Of a DNA stretch of 56,274 nucleotides, positions 1,124 through 6,245 are shown one piece after another. The notes beneath the pieces were generated by a model, which made no database searches, was not told the DNA's origin, and was given only the letters and a program-made list of their open reading frames with translations. Made by a program: the position numbers and the translations under genes. This stretch comes from Clostridia bacterium (GTDB taxonomy: Bacteria; Bacillota_A; Clostridia; Christensenellales; Aristaeellaceae), in NCBI GenBank assembly GCA_017399225.1, contig JAFQEB010000035.1, forward strand, positions 1 through 56,274, in the 5' to 3' direction. Positions within the stretch are counted from its first letter, which is position 1, and each line of letters opens with the position of its first letter.

Positions 1124-1270
1124 GGCACACTTCGTCCTTTCTTTCAGGGACGGCAGTGCTGATCAGCCATGAGTACGGTTGGAGCGCACTGCCGCTGTTG
1201 AATTGTTACTGTACGGGTCGCCGTCCATGTGGTCAGTCGCTCCTTTCTGTGATTGGTGCATACAAGCGCA
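1124..1270 (-). promoter_or_regulatory. structured 5' leader of corA, possible metal-sensing riboswitch
   Basis: Three helices can be drawn that cannot all form at once. P1 pairs 1181-1191 with 1234-1243 (10 bp, one bulge). P2 pairs 1151-1159 with 1186-1194 (9 bp, perfect) and shares 1186-1191 with P1. P3 pairs 1133-1137 with 1148-1152 (5 bp), covers the Shine-Dalgarno AAGGA (1135-1139), and shares two bases with P2. Forming P1 would block P2 and so allow P3 to hide the ribosome site. The leader lacks the conserved start of the M-box, so it is not assigned to that class. The ligand is unknown, with Mg2+ the natural guess. Confidence 0.55.
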
Positions 1271-1277
1271 CTATTTC

Positions 1278-1306
1278 ATGATAATCAAAATGAGGCCGGT
1301 TGTCAA
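1278..1306 (-). promoter_or_regulatory. sigma-A promoter of corA
   Basis: The -35 is TTGACA (1301-1306), a perfect consensus match, and the -10 is TATCAT (1278-1283), with a 17-bp spacer. Transcription should start near 1270, leaving a leader of about 148 nt before the corA ATG. Confidence 0.85.
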
Positions 1307-1346: not shown

Positions 1347-2267
1347 TCATTTGAGCGGGTCGTCCCCTTCTCGGTAAGGTACAAGGGCGGACGGCACCAC
1401 GGCTGAAGCGGGATCTGTGTGCACATGCTGATCGTCAAAGAATATATGTGCGCCGAAGGATGCGAGGATATCTGTCTTTGAAACGCCGCCCAGGAAGAAG
1501 GCTTCGTCGACCCGAACGCCCCAGTTGCGCAGCGTCTTGATGGCGCGCTCGTGGGCCGGCGCGCTTCGGGAGGTGACCAGCGCCGTGCGGATGGGCGCCT
1601 GCTCGCGATCCTGATACAGATGCTGGAGGTTTGAAAGGGTCATCAGGAAATTGGCAAAGGGGCCCTTGGAAAGCGGCATATCGGCGTTGCTCATTTCATG
1701 TTGGATGAAGGCGTCCAGCCCCTGCTGCTTGAAGACCTTCTCGGATTCGGCGGAGAAGAGTACAGCGTCGCCGTCAAAGGCGATCCGGATCTGGCCGATT
1801 TCATCCTCGGGATTGGTGCGGGTGTTGCCAACGAGGATCATACCGGCAGCAATGTCGTGATCCACAGCCTGTTTTACGTCCGGCGCGTGTGCAGAGAGAA
1901 AAAGATCGGTGCGGAAGGCTTTCAGGTAGGGCGTTACCTCCGCGCCGCCGACCAACGCAGCTCTGGTGATGTCAAGGCCGTAATGTTCAATGGATTTGAA
2001 TATACGCAGACTTGTATCGGCAGTGTTCCGGCTCATGATGATGACTTCGACCGTCCGCTGTCCGTGCTGAAGCCGATTCAGGTTCAAAAAAGCCTTGACC
2101 AGCGAGAATGCAGGCCCGGGCGGCAGGATCTCCTGCTCATGCTCCTGCTGGTACTGGCGGTATGCCTGAAGGCCTTGTTGTTCAAACACTTGGTTTTCTG
2201 CCTCCAGATCAAAAAGGGCCCGGGAGGATATCCCGATGACCAGCGGCTGTGTGAGATCAAATGCCAT
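1347..2267 (-). CDS. cytosolic 5'-nucleotidase (NT5C1-like family)
   Basis: The 306-residue protein resembles the 5'-nucleotidase family of PF06189, soluble enzymes that dephosphorylate nucleoside monophosphates such as AMP. Features seen are the N-terminal VIGISSRALFDLEAEN segment, an IAFDGDAVLF motif supplying acidic metal-binding residues, VTSRSAPAHERAIKTLR (the phosphate-binding region), and an IFFDDQ motif near the C-terminus. The second ATG at 2267 is chosen because GGGAGG lies 8 nt upstream, while the upstream ATG has none. It has its own promoter, diverges from the MATE gene, and is probably monocistronic. The substrate is inferred. Confidence 0.8.
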   Translation of the reverse strand: MAFDLTQPLVIGISSRALFDLEAENQVFEQQGLQAYRQYQQEHEQEILPPGPAFSLVKAFLNLNRLQHGQRTVEVIIMSRNTADTSLRIFKSIEHYGLDITRAALVGGAEVTPYLKAFRTDLFLSAHAPDVKQAVDHDIAAGMILVGNTRTNPEDEIGQIRIAFDGDAVLFSAESEKVFKQQGLDAFIQHEMSNADMPLSKGPFANFLMTLSNLQHLYQDREQAPIRTALVTSRSAPAHERAIKTLRNWGVRVDEAFFLGGVSKTDILASFGAHIFFDDQHVHTDPASAVVPSALVPYREGDDPLK

Positions 2268-2295
2268 AGCTGCACCTCCCTCTTGGTACACGGAT

Positions 2296-2428: not shown

Positions 2429-3817
2429 ATGGATGAAACGGAAAAATACAAAATGCAGAGCGGATCAGCGAATGATTTCTCGGTCGGCTCCGTACGCCAG
2501 CGGATCATCGCGCAGGCGATCCCGCTGACCCTGGCGCAGATCGTACAGCTTCTGTACAATATCGTGGACCGGCTTTATATCGGGCACCTGCCGGAGGATG
2601 GCGAACTTGCCCTTACCGGACTGGGGGTCACTTTCCCGGTGATTGTGATCATTGCCGCCTTCACAGCGCTGTTCGGAAACGGAGGAACGCCGCTGTTCTC
2701 CATCGCTCGCGGTAAGCGCGATGAGGCAGAGGCAGAAAAGATCATCGGCAACGTATTCGCGCTGCTGGCAGTTTCTTCAGTCGTTTTGTTTGTATTCTGC
2801 TACTTCCTGCGTGAGCCGATCCTGTATCTGTTCGGCGCAAGCAGCCAATCCTATGAATATGCGGATCAGTACCTGCAGATCTATTTGCTCGGCACCTTCT
2901 TTTCGATGATCACAACAGGCATGAACGGATACATCAACGCGCAGGGCTTTCCGCGATTCGGGATGTTCACGACGATCATCGGCGCTGTGATCAATATCGC
3001 GCTTGACCCCATTTTCATATTCGTGCTGCATATGGGTGTACGGGGCGCAGCGTTGGCCACGGTGATCAGTCAGGTGATTTCTGCGGTATGGGTACTGAGG
3101 TTCCTGACGGGAAAGCGAGCGATCCTCCGGCTGCGGCGTGATCAGATACGTATCGACAAGGCAAGAACGAAGCGAATCATGACCCTTGGGCTGCCAGGCT
3201 TTGTGATGCAGGGCACCAACAGCCTGGTGCAGATCGCCTGCAATACGCAGCTGCAGACCTATGGAAGCGCGCTATTTGAAGGCGGCGGCGATCTGTATGT
3301 GGGCGTGATGACGATCATCAACTCCGTCCGTGAGATCCTGTCGCTGCCGGTGGGCGGCATCAGCAGCGGCGCGCAGCCTGTCCTCGGCTACAATTACGGC
3401 GCGGGAAAGAATGAGCGCGTTAAGGAAGGGATTCGGTTCATGTCCATGCTGGGCATTGCTTATACAGCCTTTGCATGGATCATCGTGATGCTGCTGCCGG
3501 GCTTTCTGATGGGCATCTTCACAGATGACCTGGAGACGATACGTATCGGCGCACCGATGCTCAACATGTATTTCTTCGGATTTGTTTTCATGTCTTTCCA
3601 GTTCGTCGGTCAGAGCACCTTTCAGGGCCTTGGCAAGGCAAAGCAGGCGATTTTCTTCTCCCTCCTGCGCAAAGCCATGATCGTTGTGCCGCTGACGTAT
3701 CTGCTGCCCCTGTGGTTCGGCGTCGAGGGCGTGTTCCTGGCCGAACCTATCTCCAATGCGATCGGCGGTCTTGCCTGCTTTATTACCATGTGGTTCACGC
3801 TGTACAAGAAGCTTTGA
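2429..3817 (+). CDS. MATE-family multidrug/sodium antiporter
   Basis: This 462-residue polytopic protein has about twelve membrane segments in two pseudo-symmetric halves. It opens with the MATE pattern IAQAIPLTLAQIVQLLYNIVDRLYIGHL and has the second-half counterpart LPGFVMQGTNSLVQIACN. Family members export cationic drugs or metabolites using a Na+ or H+ gradient; the substrate here is unknown. The ATG at 2429 is used because GGAGG lies 9 nt before it, and the in-frame upstream start at 2405 has no ribosome site. It has its own promoter and a terminator. Several members resemble MepA. Confidence 0.88.
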   Translation: MDETEKYKMQSGSANDFSVGSVRQRIIAQAIPLTLAQIVQLLYNIVDRLYIGHLPEDGELALTGLGVTFPVIVIIAAFTALFGNGGTPLFSIARGKRDEAEAEKIIGNVFALLAVSSVVLFVFCYFLREPILYLFGASSQSYEYADQYLQIYLLGTFFSMITTGMNGYINAQGFPRFGMFTTIIGAVINIALDPIFIFVLHMGVRGAALATVISQVISAVWVLRFLTGKRAILRLRRDQIRIDKARTKRIMTLGLPGFVMQGTNSLVQIACNTQLQTYGSALFEGGGDLYVGVMTIINSVREILSLPVGGISSGAQPVLGYNYGAGKNERVKEGIRFMSMLGIAYTAFAWIIVMLLPGFLMGIFTDDLETIRIGAPMLNMYFFGFVFMSFQFVGQSTFQGLGKAKQAIFFSLLRKAMIVVPLTYLLPLWFGVEGVFLAEPISNAIGGLACFITMWFTLYKKL

Positions 3818-3821
3818 TACT

Positions 3822-3855
3822 ACTCCTGCTGCTATTGCGGCGGGAGTTTTCTTTT
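3822..3855 (+). terminator. terminator of the first MATE gene
   Basis: An 11-bp stem with G-T pairs (3822-3832 with 3837-3847) is followed by TTTTCTTTT, 4 bp past the stop codon. Confidence 0.8.
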
Positions 3856-3966
3856 GCGATGCGGATTCCATTCACGCATGGGACTTATGCAGCAAATTCC
3901 AGCATGATATTTCCTCTGCCCGGACAACATAGCCCCGAACCCGAAGATTTGAAGGAGGCATGTATC

Positions 3967-4524
3967 ATGCGAGCAACCGGCATCGTCAGGCGCATCGATG
4001 AACTGGGACGGGTCGTGATCCCCAAAGAGATTCGCCGCACGCTGCGTATCCGTGAGGGCGACCCGCTTGAGATCTATACAGACCGGGATGGCGAGGTCAT
4101 TCTGAAAAAGTACAGTCCCATAGGCGAAATGTCGTCCTTTGCCAAGGATTATACCGAGAGCCTATTCCGCTCGCTGGGGCATATTGCGGTGATTGTTGAT
4201 CGGGATCAGGTGGTTGCCGCCAGTGGCGTGCCGCGCAAGGAGCTGTGGGACAAGCCGATCTCCCGCGACCTTGAAACGGCCATTGCCAGCCGCCAGACGG
4301 TGGCCCTCAACCGCCAGAGCGGCAGCAGAACCATGGCTGTCACGACAGAGGAGGACGCCAACGCTGCCTACACTGCCCAGGTCATCAGCCCGATCATTGC
4401 GGACGGCGAGGCGATTGGCGCAGTGCTGCTCATGAGCCGCGAAAACGGCGTGCGCATGGGCGACACGGAGCTGAAGGTAGCGGAAACGGCGGCAGGCATT
4501 GTGGGACGGCAGATGGAACAGTGA
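3967..4524 (+). CDS. spoVT: stage V sporulation protein T, AbrB/GAF transcription regulator
   Basis: The 185-residue protein starts with a SpoVT-AbrB swapped-hairpin DNA-binding domain (MRATGIVRRIDELGRVVIPK, through about residue 50). A GAF-like domain follows (about residues 56-180). B. subtilis SpoVT is 178 residues with the same layout and tunes sigma-G genes in the forespore. The ATG at 3967 has AAGGAGG 8 nt upstream; the longer frame upstream overlaps the MATE gene and is rejected. The following spoVB-like and mazG genes match the B. subtilis spoVT-yabM-yabN order, which supports orthology. Confidence 0.95.
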   Translation: MRATGIVRRIDELGRVVIPKEIRRTLRIREGDPLEIYTDRDGEVILKKYSPIGEMSSFAKDYTESLFRSLGHIAVIVDRDQVVAASGVPRKELWDKPISRDLETAIASRQTVALNRQSGSRTMAVTTEEDANAAYTAQVISPIIADGEAIGAVLLMSRENGVRMGDTELKVAETAAGIVGRQMEQ

Positions 4525-4610: not shown

Positions 4611-4643
4611 AGGATGTGATCCCCTGTGGAAAGGATGCATCCG

Positions 4644-6245
4644 ATGTCTGAGAAAATGAAGGCGACCTCTGGAAAAACGAAATCCATTATTGGCGGCATG
4701 ACCGTCCTGGGCCTGGCTGGCGTGATCTGCAAGCTTGTCGGCGTGCTGTTTTCCATCCCGCTGCAGTGGATGATCGGCTTGGAGGGCCTGGGCGTTTACA
4801 ATGCGGTATTCCCTACCTATAATCTGCTGCTGACCATTTCCTCCGCCGGCCTTCCGGTGGCTGTGAGCCGACTGGTCGCCCGGAGCCTTGCCAAGGACGA
4901 TCCACGCAGTGCAAAGAAGGTTTTCCGCACGGCGCTGCTGCTGCTTACGGTTCTTGGCTGCATAGCAACGATCATCATCCTGGGCGGCAGCGGTATGCTG
5001 GCTCAGCGGGTCAAGATCCCGGAAAGCCAGTTGGGCTTCCAGCTGATCGCGCCCTGTGTGGCGTTGGTTTGCGTGCTGAGCAGCTTCCGCGGCTTTATGC
5101 AGGGGCAGCAGAACATGACCCCAACGGCCATCAGCCAGCTGATCGAACAGGTGGGCAAGGTTGGCATCGCGCTGCCGCTGGCGCACCTGGGCAGTGTTTA
5201 TGGCGCGAAGAGTGGCATGAGCGCCGCCTATGGCGCAGCGGGCGCCTTGCTCGGCACCACCATCGCAGAGGCAGCAGCGCTTGTGTATATGCTCCTGCTG
5301 TACCTGCGCAACCGCAGCCGCTTCAACGCTCTGCCGCAGCACGCAGCCGAGGATGAGACCGGTGGATCTGTCATGAAGCAGTTGCTGGCGATCTCGATCC
5401 CCATTACCATCGGCGCCTGCATCGTCCCTCTGTCCCAGTGGATCGACAGTGCCATGCTGATGGACCGGCTCCAGGCTGCAGGCAATGCCTATGACGCAGC
5501 CAAGCAGCTCTACGGCCTGTTTACCGGAACGGTCATCCGAATCATCAATATCCCCACCGCGCTGGCGCTGGCGGTCAGCATGTCCCTCGTGCCTGCCATC
5601 AGCTCCGCCAAGGCCCTCAATGATGACGAAACGGTTCGCCGGCAGTCCGATCTTGGTCTGCGATTTGCGTTCCTGATCGGCTTCCCCTGCTCTGTCGGCA
5701 TGAGCGTGCTGGCTGAACCCATCATGCGCTTCTTCTACGAAAATACGATGGAAGAAGCCTACCTGATCACCGGCGGACAGCTTCTGGCGGTTTCAAGCAT
5801 GACGATCGTGCTGTTTACGGTCGTACAGGCCACCAGCAGCATACTTCAGGGGCTGGGCAAGCAGCGGATCCCGATGTATACGCTGGTTGCAGGCGTGGTC
5901 TGCAAGGTCATTCTGAACTATGTGCTTGTTGGCATCCCCGGAATCGGGATCCACGGCGCTCCCATTGCTTCGCTGGTATGCTACACCGTTTCCCTGGTAC
6001 CGAACCTGTACTATGTGCTGAAGTATGGTAAGGTTCGCTTTAACCTGATGGGCTGGCTTGTGCGGCCCGGAATTGCGGCGGCGGCGATGGGACTTGCGGT
6101 CTGGCTGCTGCGCTTGATCCTCCCCTCCCACCGTCTGCTGACGCTGCTGGAGGTTGCAGTCGGCGTAGCGGTCTATGCAGCGGCTGCACTGGCGATCAAA
6201 GCCGTCACCAAGGAAGATCTGCGTGCCTTCCGTCGCAGAAAGTAA
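4644..6245 (+). CDS. SpoVB/MurJ-like polysaccharide flippase (MOP superfamily)
   Basis: The 533-residue protein has about fourteen membrane segments. It resembles the PST/MviN group of the MOP superfamily (opening GGMTVLGLAGVICKLVGVLFSIPL, then GLEGLGVYNAVFPTYNLLLTISSAGLPVAVSRLVA). Relatives are SpoVB, needed for spore cortex, and lipid II flippases. Its place between spoVT and mazG matches B. subtilis yabM. Three in-frame starts exist (GTG 4626, ATG 4635, ATG 4644); 4644 is preferred because AAAGGA stands 9 nt upstream. Whether it serves the cortex, lipid II or another lipid-linked sugar cannot be told from sequence. Confidence 0.88.
   Translation: MSEKMKATSGKTKSIIGGMTVLGLAGVICKLVGVLFSIPLQWMIGLEGLGVYNAVFPTYNLLLTISSAGLPVAVSRLVARSLAKDDPRSAKKVFRTALLLLTVLGCIATIIILGGSGMLAQRVKIPESQLGFQLIAPCVALVCVLSSFRGFMQGQQNMTPTAISQLIEQVGKVGIALPLAHLGSVYGAKSGMSAAYGAAGALLGTTIAEAAALVYMLLLYLRNRSRFNALPQHAAEDETGGSVMKQLLAISIPITIGACIVPLSQWIDSAMLMDRLQAAGNAYDAAKQLYGLFTGTVIRIINIPTALALAVSMSLVPAISSAKALNDDETVRRQSDLGLRFAFLIGFPCSVGMSVLAEPIMRFFYENTMEEAYLITGGQLLAVSSMTIVLFTVVQATSSILQGLGKQRIPMYTLVAGVVCKVILNYVLVGIPGIGIHGAPIASLVCYTVSLVPNLYYVLKYGKVRFNLMGWLVRPGIAAAAMGLAVWLLRLILPSHRLLTLLEVAVGVAVYAAAALAIKAVTKEDLRAFRRRK

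Follow-up and report, generated by a model that had tools for sequence, protein, structure and literature searches.

A putative ribosome-read Mg2+ switch in the corA leader of a Clostridia bacterium

The closest described systems are leaders of enterobacterial Mg2+ transporter genes, and our account of them follows the available parts of the articles cited. MgtL is the leader peptide of mgtA in Escherichia coli and Salmonella, at whose EPDP sequence ribosomes drop off under low Mg2+ through intrinsic destabilization, and mutation of Glu2 and Asp4 abolishes the regulation (PMC11282234). For mgtQ-mgtB of Salmonella, a scheme has been tested in which pairing of regions 1:2 and 3:4 competes with pairing of regions 2:3, and in which Asp2 and Glu5 are required (PMC8092293). 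In E. coli, translation of CorL is inversely related to expression of corA, and Rho is involved (PMC11552253). Some corA genes are preceded by an M-box (PMC4072509), and a corA motif, which the available text reports from gamma-proteobacteria only, is listed as a riboswitch candidate (PMC6429828). The literature that we searched, with few subscription papers covered, contained no report of a clostridial corA leader peptide or upstream ORF, or of an M-box combined with a leader ORF. To our knowledge, a self-aborting leader peptide for ribosome-based Mg2+ sensing is known only from enterobacteria.

The stretch of DNA analyzed here, called the window throughout, comprises the 56,274 nucleotides at positions 1 to 56,274 of contig JAFQEB010000035.1 from Clostridia bacterium (Christensenellales; Aristaeellaceae; assembly GCA_017399225.1), an organism given as a gut clostridium. 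It harbors a corA gene (Table 1), whose product scores 108.7 bits against the NCBIfam model TIGR00383, under the cut-off of 200.75. The 5' neighbor of corA is a gene for a 5'-nucleotidase (1347-2291, minus strand; PF06189, E 6.1e-131), and corA nonetheless has its own promoter-like site, from which the leader transcript would begin near position 1271; promoter-type sites as good as this one number three within positions 1-2600, compared with 1.7 expected. Further along, the plus strand presumably encodes an AbrB/SpoVT-like regulator (3712-4524) followed by a SpoVB/MurJ-like flippase (4626-6245).

Table 1. Positions of corA and of the parts of its leader in the window
Feature	Position	Strand	Basis
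corA, CorA-family Mg2+ channel, 313 aa	182..1123	-	PF01544, E 1.9e-57
corA leader promoter, TTGACA-17-TATCAT	1278..1306	-	11/12 consensus positions
Upstream ORF Shine-Dalgarno, AAAGGAG; GGAG inside P1 5' arm	1240..1246	-	sequence; present in close relatives
Upstream ORF, ATG to TGA, 21 residues, MDGDPYSNNSTAAVRSNRTHG	1163..1228	-	Shine-Dalgarno-preceded; motif conserved upstream of corA
P1 5' arm, region 1, covers the ORF's Shine-Dalgarno	1234..1243	-	pairs with 1181-1191; equaled by 1/300 partner shuffles
P1 3' arm, region 2, codons of ORF tail	1181..1191	-	sequence, MFE, shuffle test
P2 5' arm, region 2, ORF tail	1186..1194	-	perfect 9 bp with 1151-1159; equaled by 0/300 partner shuffles
P2 3' arm, region 3, spacer	1151..1159	-	sequence, shuffle test
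P3 5' arm, tip of corA RBS hairpin	1148..1152	-	sequence, MFE; alone not above chance
P3 3' arm, region 4, contains GGA of corA Shine-Dalgarno	1133..1137	-	sequence, MFE
RBS hairpin outer stem, 5' arm CUCAUGGC, final ORF codons	1166..1173	-	MFE
RBS hairpin outer stem, 3' arm GCCAUGAG, contains corA start codon	1119..1126	-	MFE
corA Shine-Dalgarno, AAAGGA	1135..1140	-	sequence; GAAAGGA invariant in 12-sequence alignment

A preliminary description had read the leader as a ligand-controlled riboswitch and had overlooked the upstream ORF whose Shine-Dalgarno sequence (SD) sits in the 5' arm of P1; because the leader encodes this ORF of 21 residues, the reading changes. As in MgtL (MEPDP, read from strain MG1655, with E2, D4 and P5), the ORF of the window (MDGDP, with D2, D4 and P5) is a short frame in the leader of an Mg2+ transporter gene, here that of an importer, has acidic and Pro residues within its first five codons, and overlaps alternative helices. 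It differs from MgtL in belonging to another phylum and another transporter family, in its unrelated peptide tail, and in an output that looks translational, through a hairpin over the ribosome-binding site (RBS). The ysgD ORF before corA of E. coli MG1655, which we take to be corL, reads LDTPSRYWLTILSSRINS, i.e., LDTPSRYW.... CorL of E. coli and Salmonella resembles our case as a switch in a corA leader that consists of a translated ORF and responds to Mg2+, and differs in that Pro stands at residue 4 rather than 5, that residue 4 is not acidic, and that Rho is involved (PMC11552253). The anatomy of the window leader is that of MgtQ, where 1:2 plus 3:4 hides the RBS and 2:3 frees it, with early acidic codons deciding (PMC8092293): P1, P2 and the RBS hairpin compete for common strands in the same arrangement, with the gene's RBS in 3:4. 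MgtQ is encoded by an 8-residue ORF between two operon genes (PMC8092293), whereas the ORF of the window has 21 residues and lies in a 5' leader, and, unlike in MgtQ, region 1 is the ORF's own SD.

The three helices of the preliminary description stand exactly where it had placed them on the minus strand. P1 (GGAGCGACUG with CAGUGCGCUCC; 10 pairs and one bulged G) pairs the SD of the ORF with the ORF tail, P2 (CGGCAGUGC with GCACUGCCG; nine pairs, all perfect) joins that tail to the spacer, and P3 (CGUCC with GGACG; five pairs) includes the GGA of the corA SD. As had also been proposed, they are mutually exclusive, with 1186-1191 common to P1 and P2 and 1151-1152 common to P2 and P3. The preliminary description understated P3: in the MFE structure it caps a longer hairpin that contains the corA SD, adds the pairs 1159-1155/1131-1127, and continues into the outer stem over the corA start codon. 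By itself P3 is not above chance: in a test that covers P3 with a 3' arm too short to take in the start-codon stem, 195 of 300 shuffles matched the best pairing available to the region of the corA SD. The MFE of the leader is the closed state, with P1 and the corA hairpin both formed. The fold of the 156-nt leader was matched or bettered by 2 of 200 dinucleotide shuffles (z -2.5), and opening the corA SD-to-AUG region costs 13.1 kcal/mol, an amount reached by 2 of 40 shuffles, compared with a shuffle mean of 7.7. No terminator-like site was found between the ORF and corA in the window leader. The ORF contributes its SD to the 5' arm of P1 and its tail both to the 3' arm of P1 and to the 5' arm of P2, so that the position of a ribosome can be read by the helices; and since P1 is the ORF's SD paired with the ORF's own tail, translation of the ORF would be the natural input.

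To collect relatives, contigs were scanned for corA, and the best 80 of at least 583 confirmed loci together with the window gave 81 upstream regions; gene starts were corrected in the 12 of the 80 loci in which the CorA match starts after residue 1. The strict motif, an SD-preceded ORF of 6-60 codons starting x[DE]xxP, was found upstream of corA in 51 of these 81 regions, a number that the corrected gene starts left unchanged (L045 leaves and L059 enters), while 20 shuffled sets averaged 0.5 such regions, with no more than 3 in any set, and the reverse strand gave 1/81. Across the window and these best 80 of at least 583 loci, Pro occupies residue 5 in 54/81 regions and any other of residues 2-9 in at most 10, residue 2 is D or E in 56/81, and some SD-preceded small ORF is present in 65/81; Pro5 and the acidic residue 2 are the most constant residues in the regions examined. 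The strict motif is absent from 30 of the 81, among which are four relaxed forms (L019, L027, L033, and L052) and two regions with short upstream sequences (L072 and L060); L038 was scored negative, although an ORF is listed for it, because no stop was met before corA. A draw of 299 genomes from the phylum yielded a CorA match in 140 and 29 new best-scoring loci, with the strict motif in 9 and without it in 20, and the motif is present in 8 of the 13 loci L104 to L116.

For closer comparison we used 22 leaders (window, L001 to L007, and L092 to L105), a close set chosen after the sequences had been seen: 21 are every leader in the collection with a CorA identity of approximately 60% or above, and L105 (57%) was included after its motif had been noticed, while the equally distant, motif-less L107 to L110 and L112 were left out. 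Counted by CorA identity in the sequences collected, the motif is found in 21/21 leaders at approximately 60% or more and in 3/8 of L105 to L112 (55-58%). All 22 leaders of the close set have the ORF, with one candidate each, and all 22 have D4 and P5, that is, x[DE]xDP; residues 2 and 5 are demanded by the search pattern, yet no leader of the set lacks a candidate. The P5 codons vary (CCG, CCT, and CCA), and pairwise differences are 160 synonymous and 0 nonsynonymous at P5 and 21 and 0 at D4, while codons 8-16 diverge. By these substitution patterns it is the start of the peptide, rather than the nucleotides, that is conserved in the close set. A promoter-like best match (10-11/12 positions), scored without a shuffle control, lies 43-82 nt 5' of the ORF in 22/22 leaders. 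The ORF of L094, counted from a TTG start (LDGDPYPPTPAGPIAP), is unusually rich in proline, as is MgtL; counting instead from the ATG that precedes it by one codon in the same frame would change its residue numbers by one. Among 67 peptides, 55 have D or G at residue 4, and two acidic residues stand at positions 2-4, as in MgtL, in only 46, with only one in 21. The distance from the stop codon to corA ranges from 12 to 195 nt. For six leader peptides, NCBIfam yielded no model.

Genomes were also scanned for the motif irrespective of corA. A first scan, whose 4-10 nt spacer missed the closest relatives, matched 12 of 150 genomes at 13 places, and in 7 of the 12 the match lies at corA; because the control with the pattern reversed matched just as often (13 places in 11 genomes), only position at corA, and not the total, counts here. 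A second scan with a 5-12 nt spacer and a narrower downstream pattern matched 5 of 291 genomes, 4 of them at corA, with 1 control match. One hit, MDPGPYSW in L134, has no corA nearby and is regarded as chance.

The helices themselves were followed leader by leader. In the 22 leaders the 5% shuffle level is passed by P1 in 12 and by P2 in 11, and by P3 in only 6; the best duplexes overlap in 22/22, which is a weak test since many duplexes are long. P1 of L094, whose letters are very unlike those of the window, still pairs well (1/300 shuffles). In a MAFFT alignment of the leaders the helix arms fall out of register between clades. A table of pairs across leaders was drawn up from per-sequence folds, and because its pairs are canonical by construction it was not used as evidence of covariation, so that the weight rests on the shuffle tests.

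The effect of a ribosome was modeled by keeping 35 nt around the ORF start (-20 to +14) free of pairing, a crude footprint, and reading out the opening cost of the corA SD-to-AUG region. In the window this start block lowered the cost from 13.1 to 6.0 kcal/mol (gain 7.2), which 0 of 40 shuffles equaled; the MFE did not flip, with the corA hairpin remaining the best fold and opening still costing 6.0 kcal/mol. Among the 22 leaders the gain exceeded 1 in 16, and in 12 at most 1 of 40 shuffles was as good; L007 moved the opposite way (-5.5), and L092, L096, L104, and L105 showed no gain. In 24 of 45 distant leaders, scored from corrected gene starts, no more than 1 of 30 shuffles did as well, a count that the correction left unchanged; over the 45 the median gain was 3.0 versus -0.3, with a gain above 1 in 32 and none in 4. 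The 67 leaders form 47 groups by blastn, of which 26 hold at least one leader whose gain is nearly unmatched (at most one shuffle as good). Taken over these leaders, the models suggest that a ribosome at the ORF start would open corA. When the block was slid along 66-67 leaders (6 of the 67 with the CorA match start, after residue 1, used as gene start), the median gain peaked at 2.5-2.6 for blocks starting at -20 to -15, was 0.9 at -5, and was approximately zero from +5; in the window alone it was 6.4-6.6 at -20 to -15, negative from -5 to +20, 4.8 at +25, and 2.5 at +30. With this crude footprint, the models favor ribosomes confined to the ORF start, as in abort and rebind, over a stable stall at codon 5.

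A block over the ORF tail gave a more mixed picture. In the 22 leaders the median stayed closed (12.2 versus 11.1 free), while the cost fell by more than 1 in 7/22, including the window (13.1 to 8.9), and the tail block opened corA more than the start block did in 16 of the 45 distant leaders. Because the tail block also opens corA in these cases, there is little there to back the proposal that corA is "off" once the ORF is translated completely, and closure of corA by complete translation is not well supported by the modeling. The wiring suggested by the folds may differ by clade. In a Sedimentibacter-like group (L016, L023, L028, L035, and L070) the peptide starts MDEVP or MDEIP and corA is opened further by blocking the tail than by blocking the start; leaders of this group are perhaps wired differently, judging from the models.

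On the strength of the observed ORF and the constraint on its N-terminus, of the helices, and of what a ribosome placed at the start of the ORF does in the models, we regard the corA leader as, on balance, probably a ribosome-read Mg2+ switch like MgtL and MgtQ rather than a ligand riboswitch. We infer that the ORF is translated, that Mg2+ is the signal, that ribosome drop-off is the event, and that the direction is as follows, including "off" upon complete translation. The M-D-G-D-P ORF overlaps the three mutually exclusive helices, and its translation would set which of them forms. With no ribosome on the ORF, P1 would mask the SD that serves the ORF itself, corA would be masked by the RBS hairpin (P3 together with the outer stem), and corA would be off. 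Under low Mg2+, ribosomes would pause or fall off at the early acidic and Pro codons, so that the ORF start would stay occupied and the tail would seldom be swept by ribosomes; P2 would then form, the corA hairpin would be weakened, and corA would be translated. With ample Mg2+, ribosomes would run through, P1 and P2 would be melted, and the corA hairpin would re-form behind them, turning corA off.

The same ORF and switch could instead report a signal other than Mg2+, namely, the capacity to translate Asp-Pro or Gly-Pro (EF-P and YfmR-type factors), charged tRNA-Pro, or the general rate of initiation. The constancy of Pro5 together with the acidic residue 2 and the prevalence of D or G at residue 4 would suit such a signal, and overexpression of YfmR in Bacillus subtilis relieves stalls at Asp-Pro repeats, according to the available text (PMC11381351). 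We nevertheless consider it unlikely: the motif was found via corA, the gene of an Mg2+ channel, both genome scans placed it at corA in most of the genomes matched, and seven leaders combine it with an M-box. A stable stall at codon 5, moreover, would free the SD of the ORF, and the modeled median gain drops to 0.9 when the block starts at -5.

Somewhat less expected still is transcription attenuation, in which the RBS hairpin would act mainly as a terminator, intrinsic or Rho-dependent as in E. coli corL and mgtL, under control of the ORF; it overlaps with the ribosome-read switch because the ORF is read alike in both. L004 and L006 have a hairpin followed by a T run directly before corA, L101 and L102 look alike by eye, and E. 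coli corA is controlled via corL with involvement of Rho (PMC11552253, available text). Against it, the window has no such site, and a terminator-like hairpin was scored in only 7 of 49 loci, in several weakly. In L004, L006, L101, and L102 the hairpin contains the corA SD and the T run precedes the start codon, and there it may also work as a terminator.

It is quite improbable that the ORF conveys no signal and simply holds the corA RBS open, as a constitutive aid to translation or through coupling: in the models occupancy of the start, and in many leaders also of the tail, would indeed open the RBS, but the variable spacing between stop codon and corA speaks against this, and simple coupling leaves the fixed acidic residue 2 and Pro5 unexplained. 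Equally hard to credit is a riboswitch in which a bound metal or metabolite stabilizes P1 and thereby closes the corA RBS, as the preliminary description had proposed, for although the three exclusive helices, the closed MFE state, the M-box before some corA genes (PMC4072509), and the proposal of the gamma-proteobacterial corA motif as a riboswitch (PMC6429828) are in its favor, the 5' arm of P1 is a ribosome site and the P1 loop consists of a reading frame in which the first codons keep their amino acids while their third positions vary freely. The covariance search that had been suggested returned 0 matches in the window at gathering against 4227 Rfam families, which sets the leader apart from the corA motif, and RF00380 was matched neither at gathering in the window nor at E up to 10 in positions 1000-1450, in agreement with the earlier statement that the leader does not begin like an M-box. 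In the 22 leaders no conserved unpaired aptamer bases independent of coding were found, the conserved loop being ORF codons with synonymous change. With no Rfam match and a conserved part that is coding, the ligand riboswitch was dropped as the leading reading.

The M-box (ykoK leader, RF00380) is, like the proposed ribosome-read switch, an Mg2+-responsive leader of Mg2+ transporter genes; it differs in that its RNA binds Mg2+ without a ribosome. It was searched for in 60 loci, which include 56 corA loci carrying the ORF in strict or relaxed form, and was found upstream of the same type of ORF, on the corA strand, in seven: L010, L011, L015, L026, L042, L061, and L130, the last of which came from the motif scan. 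The transcripts of these seven loci are therefore tied to Mg2+. L015 and L061 have a terminator-like hairpin between M-box and ORF, and none was scored in L042, which belongs to a cultured species, Ruminiclostridium cellobioparum. Of 30 regions counted without the ORF, 20 were searched and 1 (L013) has an M-box. On this sequence evidence, the seven loci are candidates for two Mg2+ sensors in series, the M-box and then the ORF.

Two of these results stand out, the wide spread of the motif among clostridia and its tandem with the M-box. They raise the possibility, which we put forward tentatively and at less than even confidence, that many clostridia place before corA a ribosome-read Mg2+ sensor, in which early failure on an M-acidic-x-x-Pro peptide exposes the corA RBS via an RNA switch that changes its letters and keeps its function, with an M-box in series in some lineages, and that the likeness to MgtL, MgtQ, and CorL reflects independent invention or very old descent. 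If so, M-box and ORF would put two unlike Mg2+ sensors on one transcript, an RNA aptamer with its terminator and then the ribosome, a natural two-stage control. So sharp a motif in clostridial corA leaders would make Mg2+ sensing by self-aborting peptides a wider principle and would serve as a signature for finding further sensors, and its natural variants, with D or G at residue 4 and with one acid or two, could show which features of the nascent chain render a ribosome sensitive to Mg2+.

Other RNA elements lie near some of these genes: a fluoride riboswitch downstream of the corA match in L022 (1734-1805), a purine riboswitch on the opposite strand in L047 (1103-1203, minus), and a RAGATH-18 RNA near corA in L049 (848-915).
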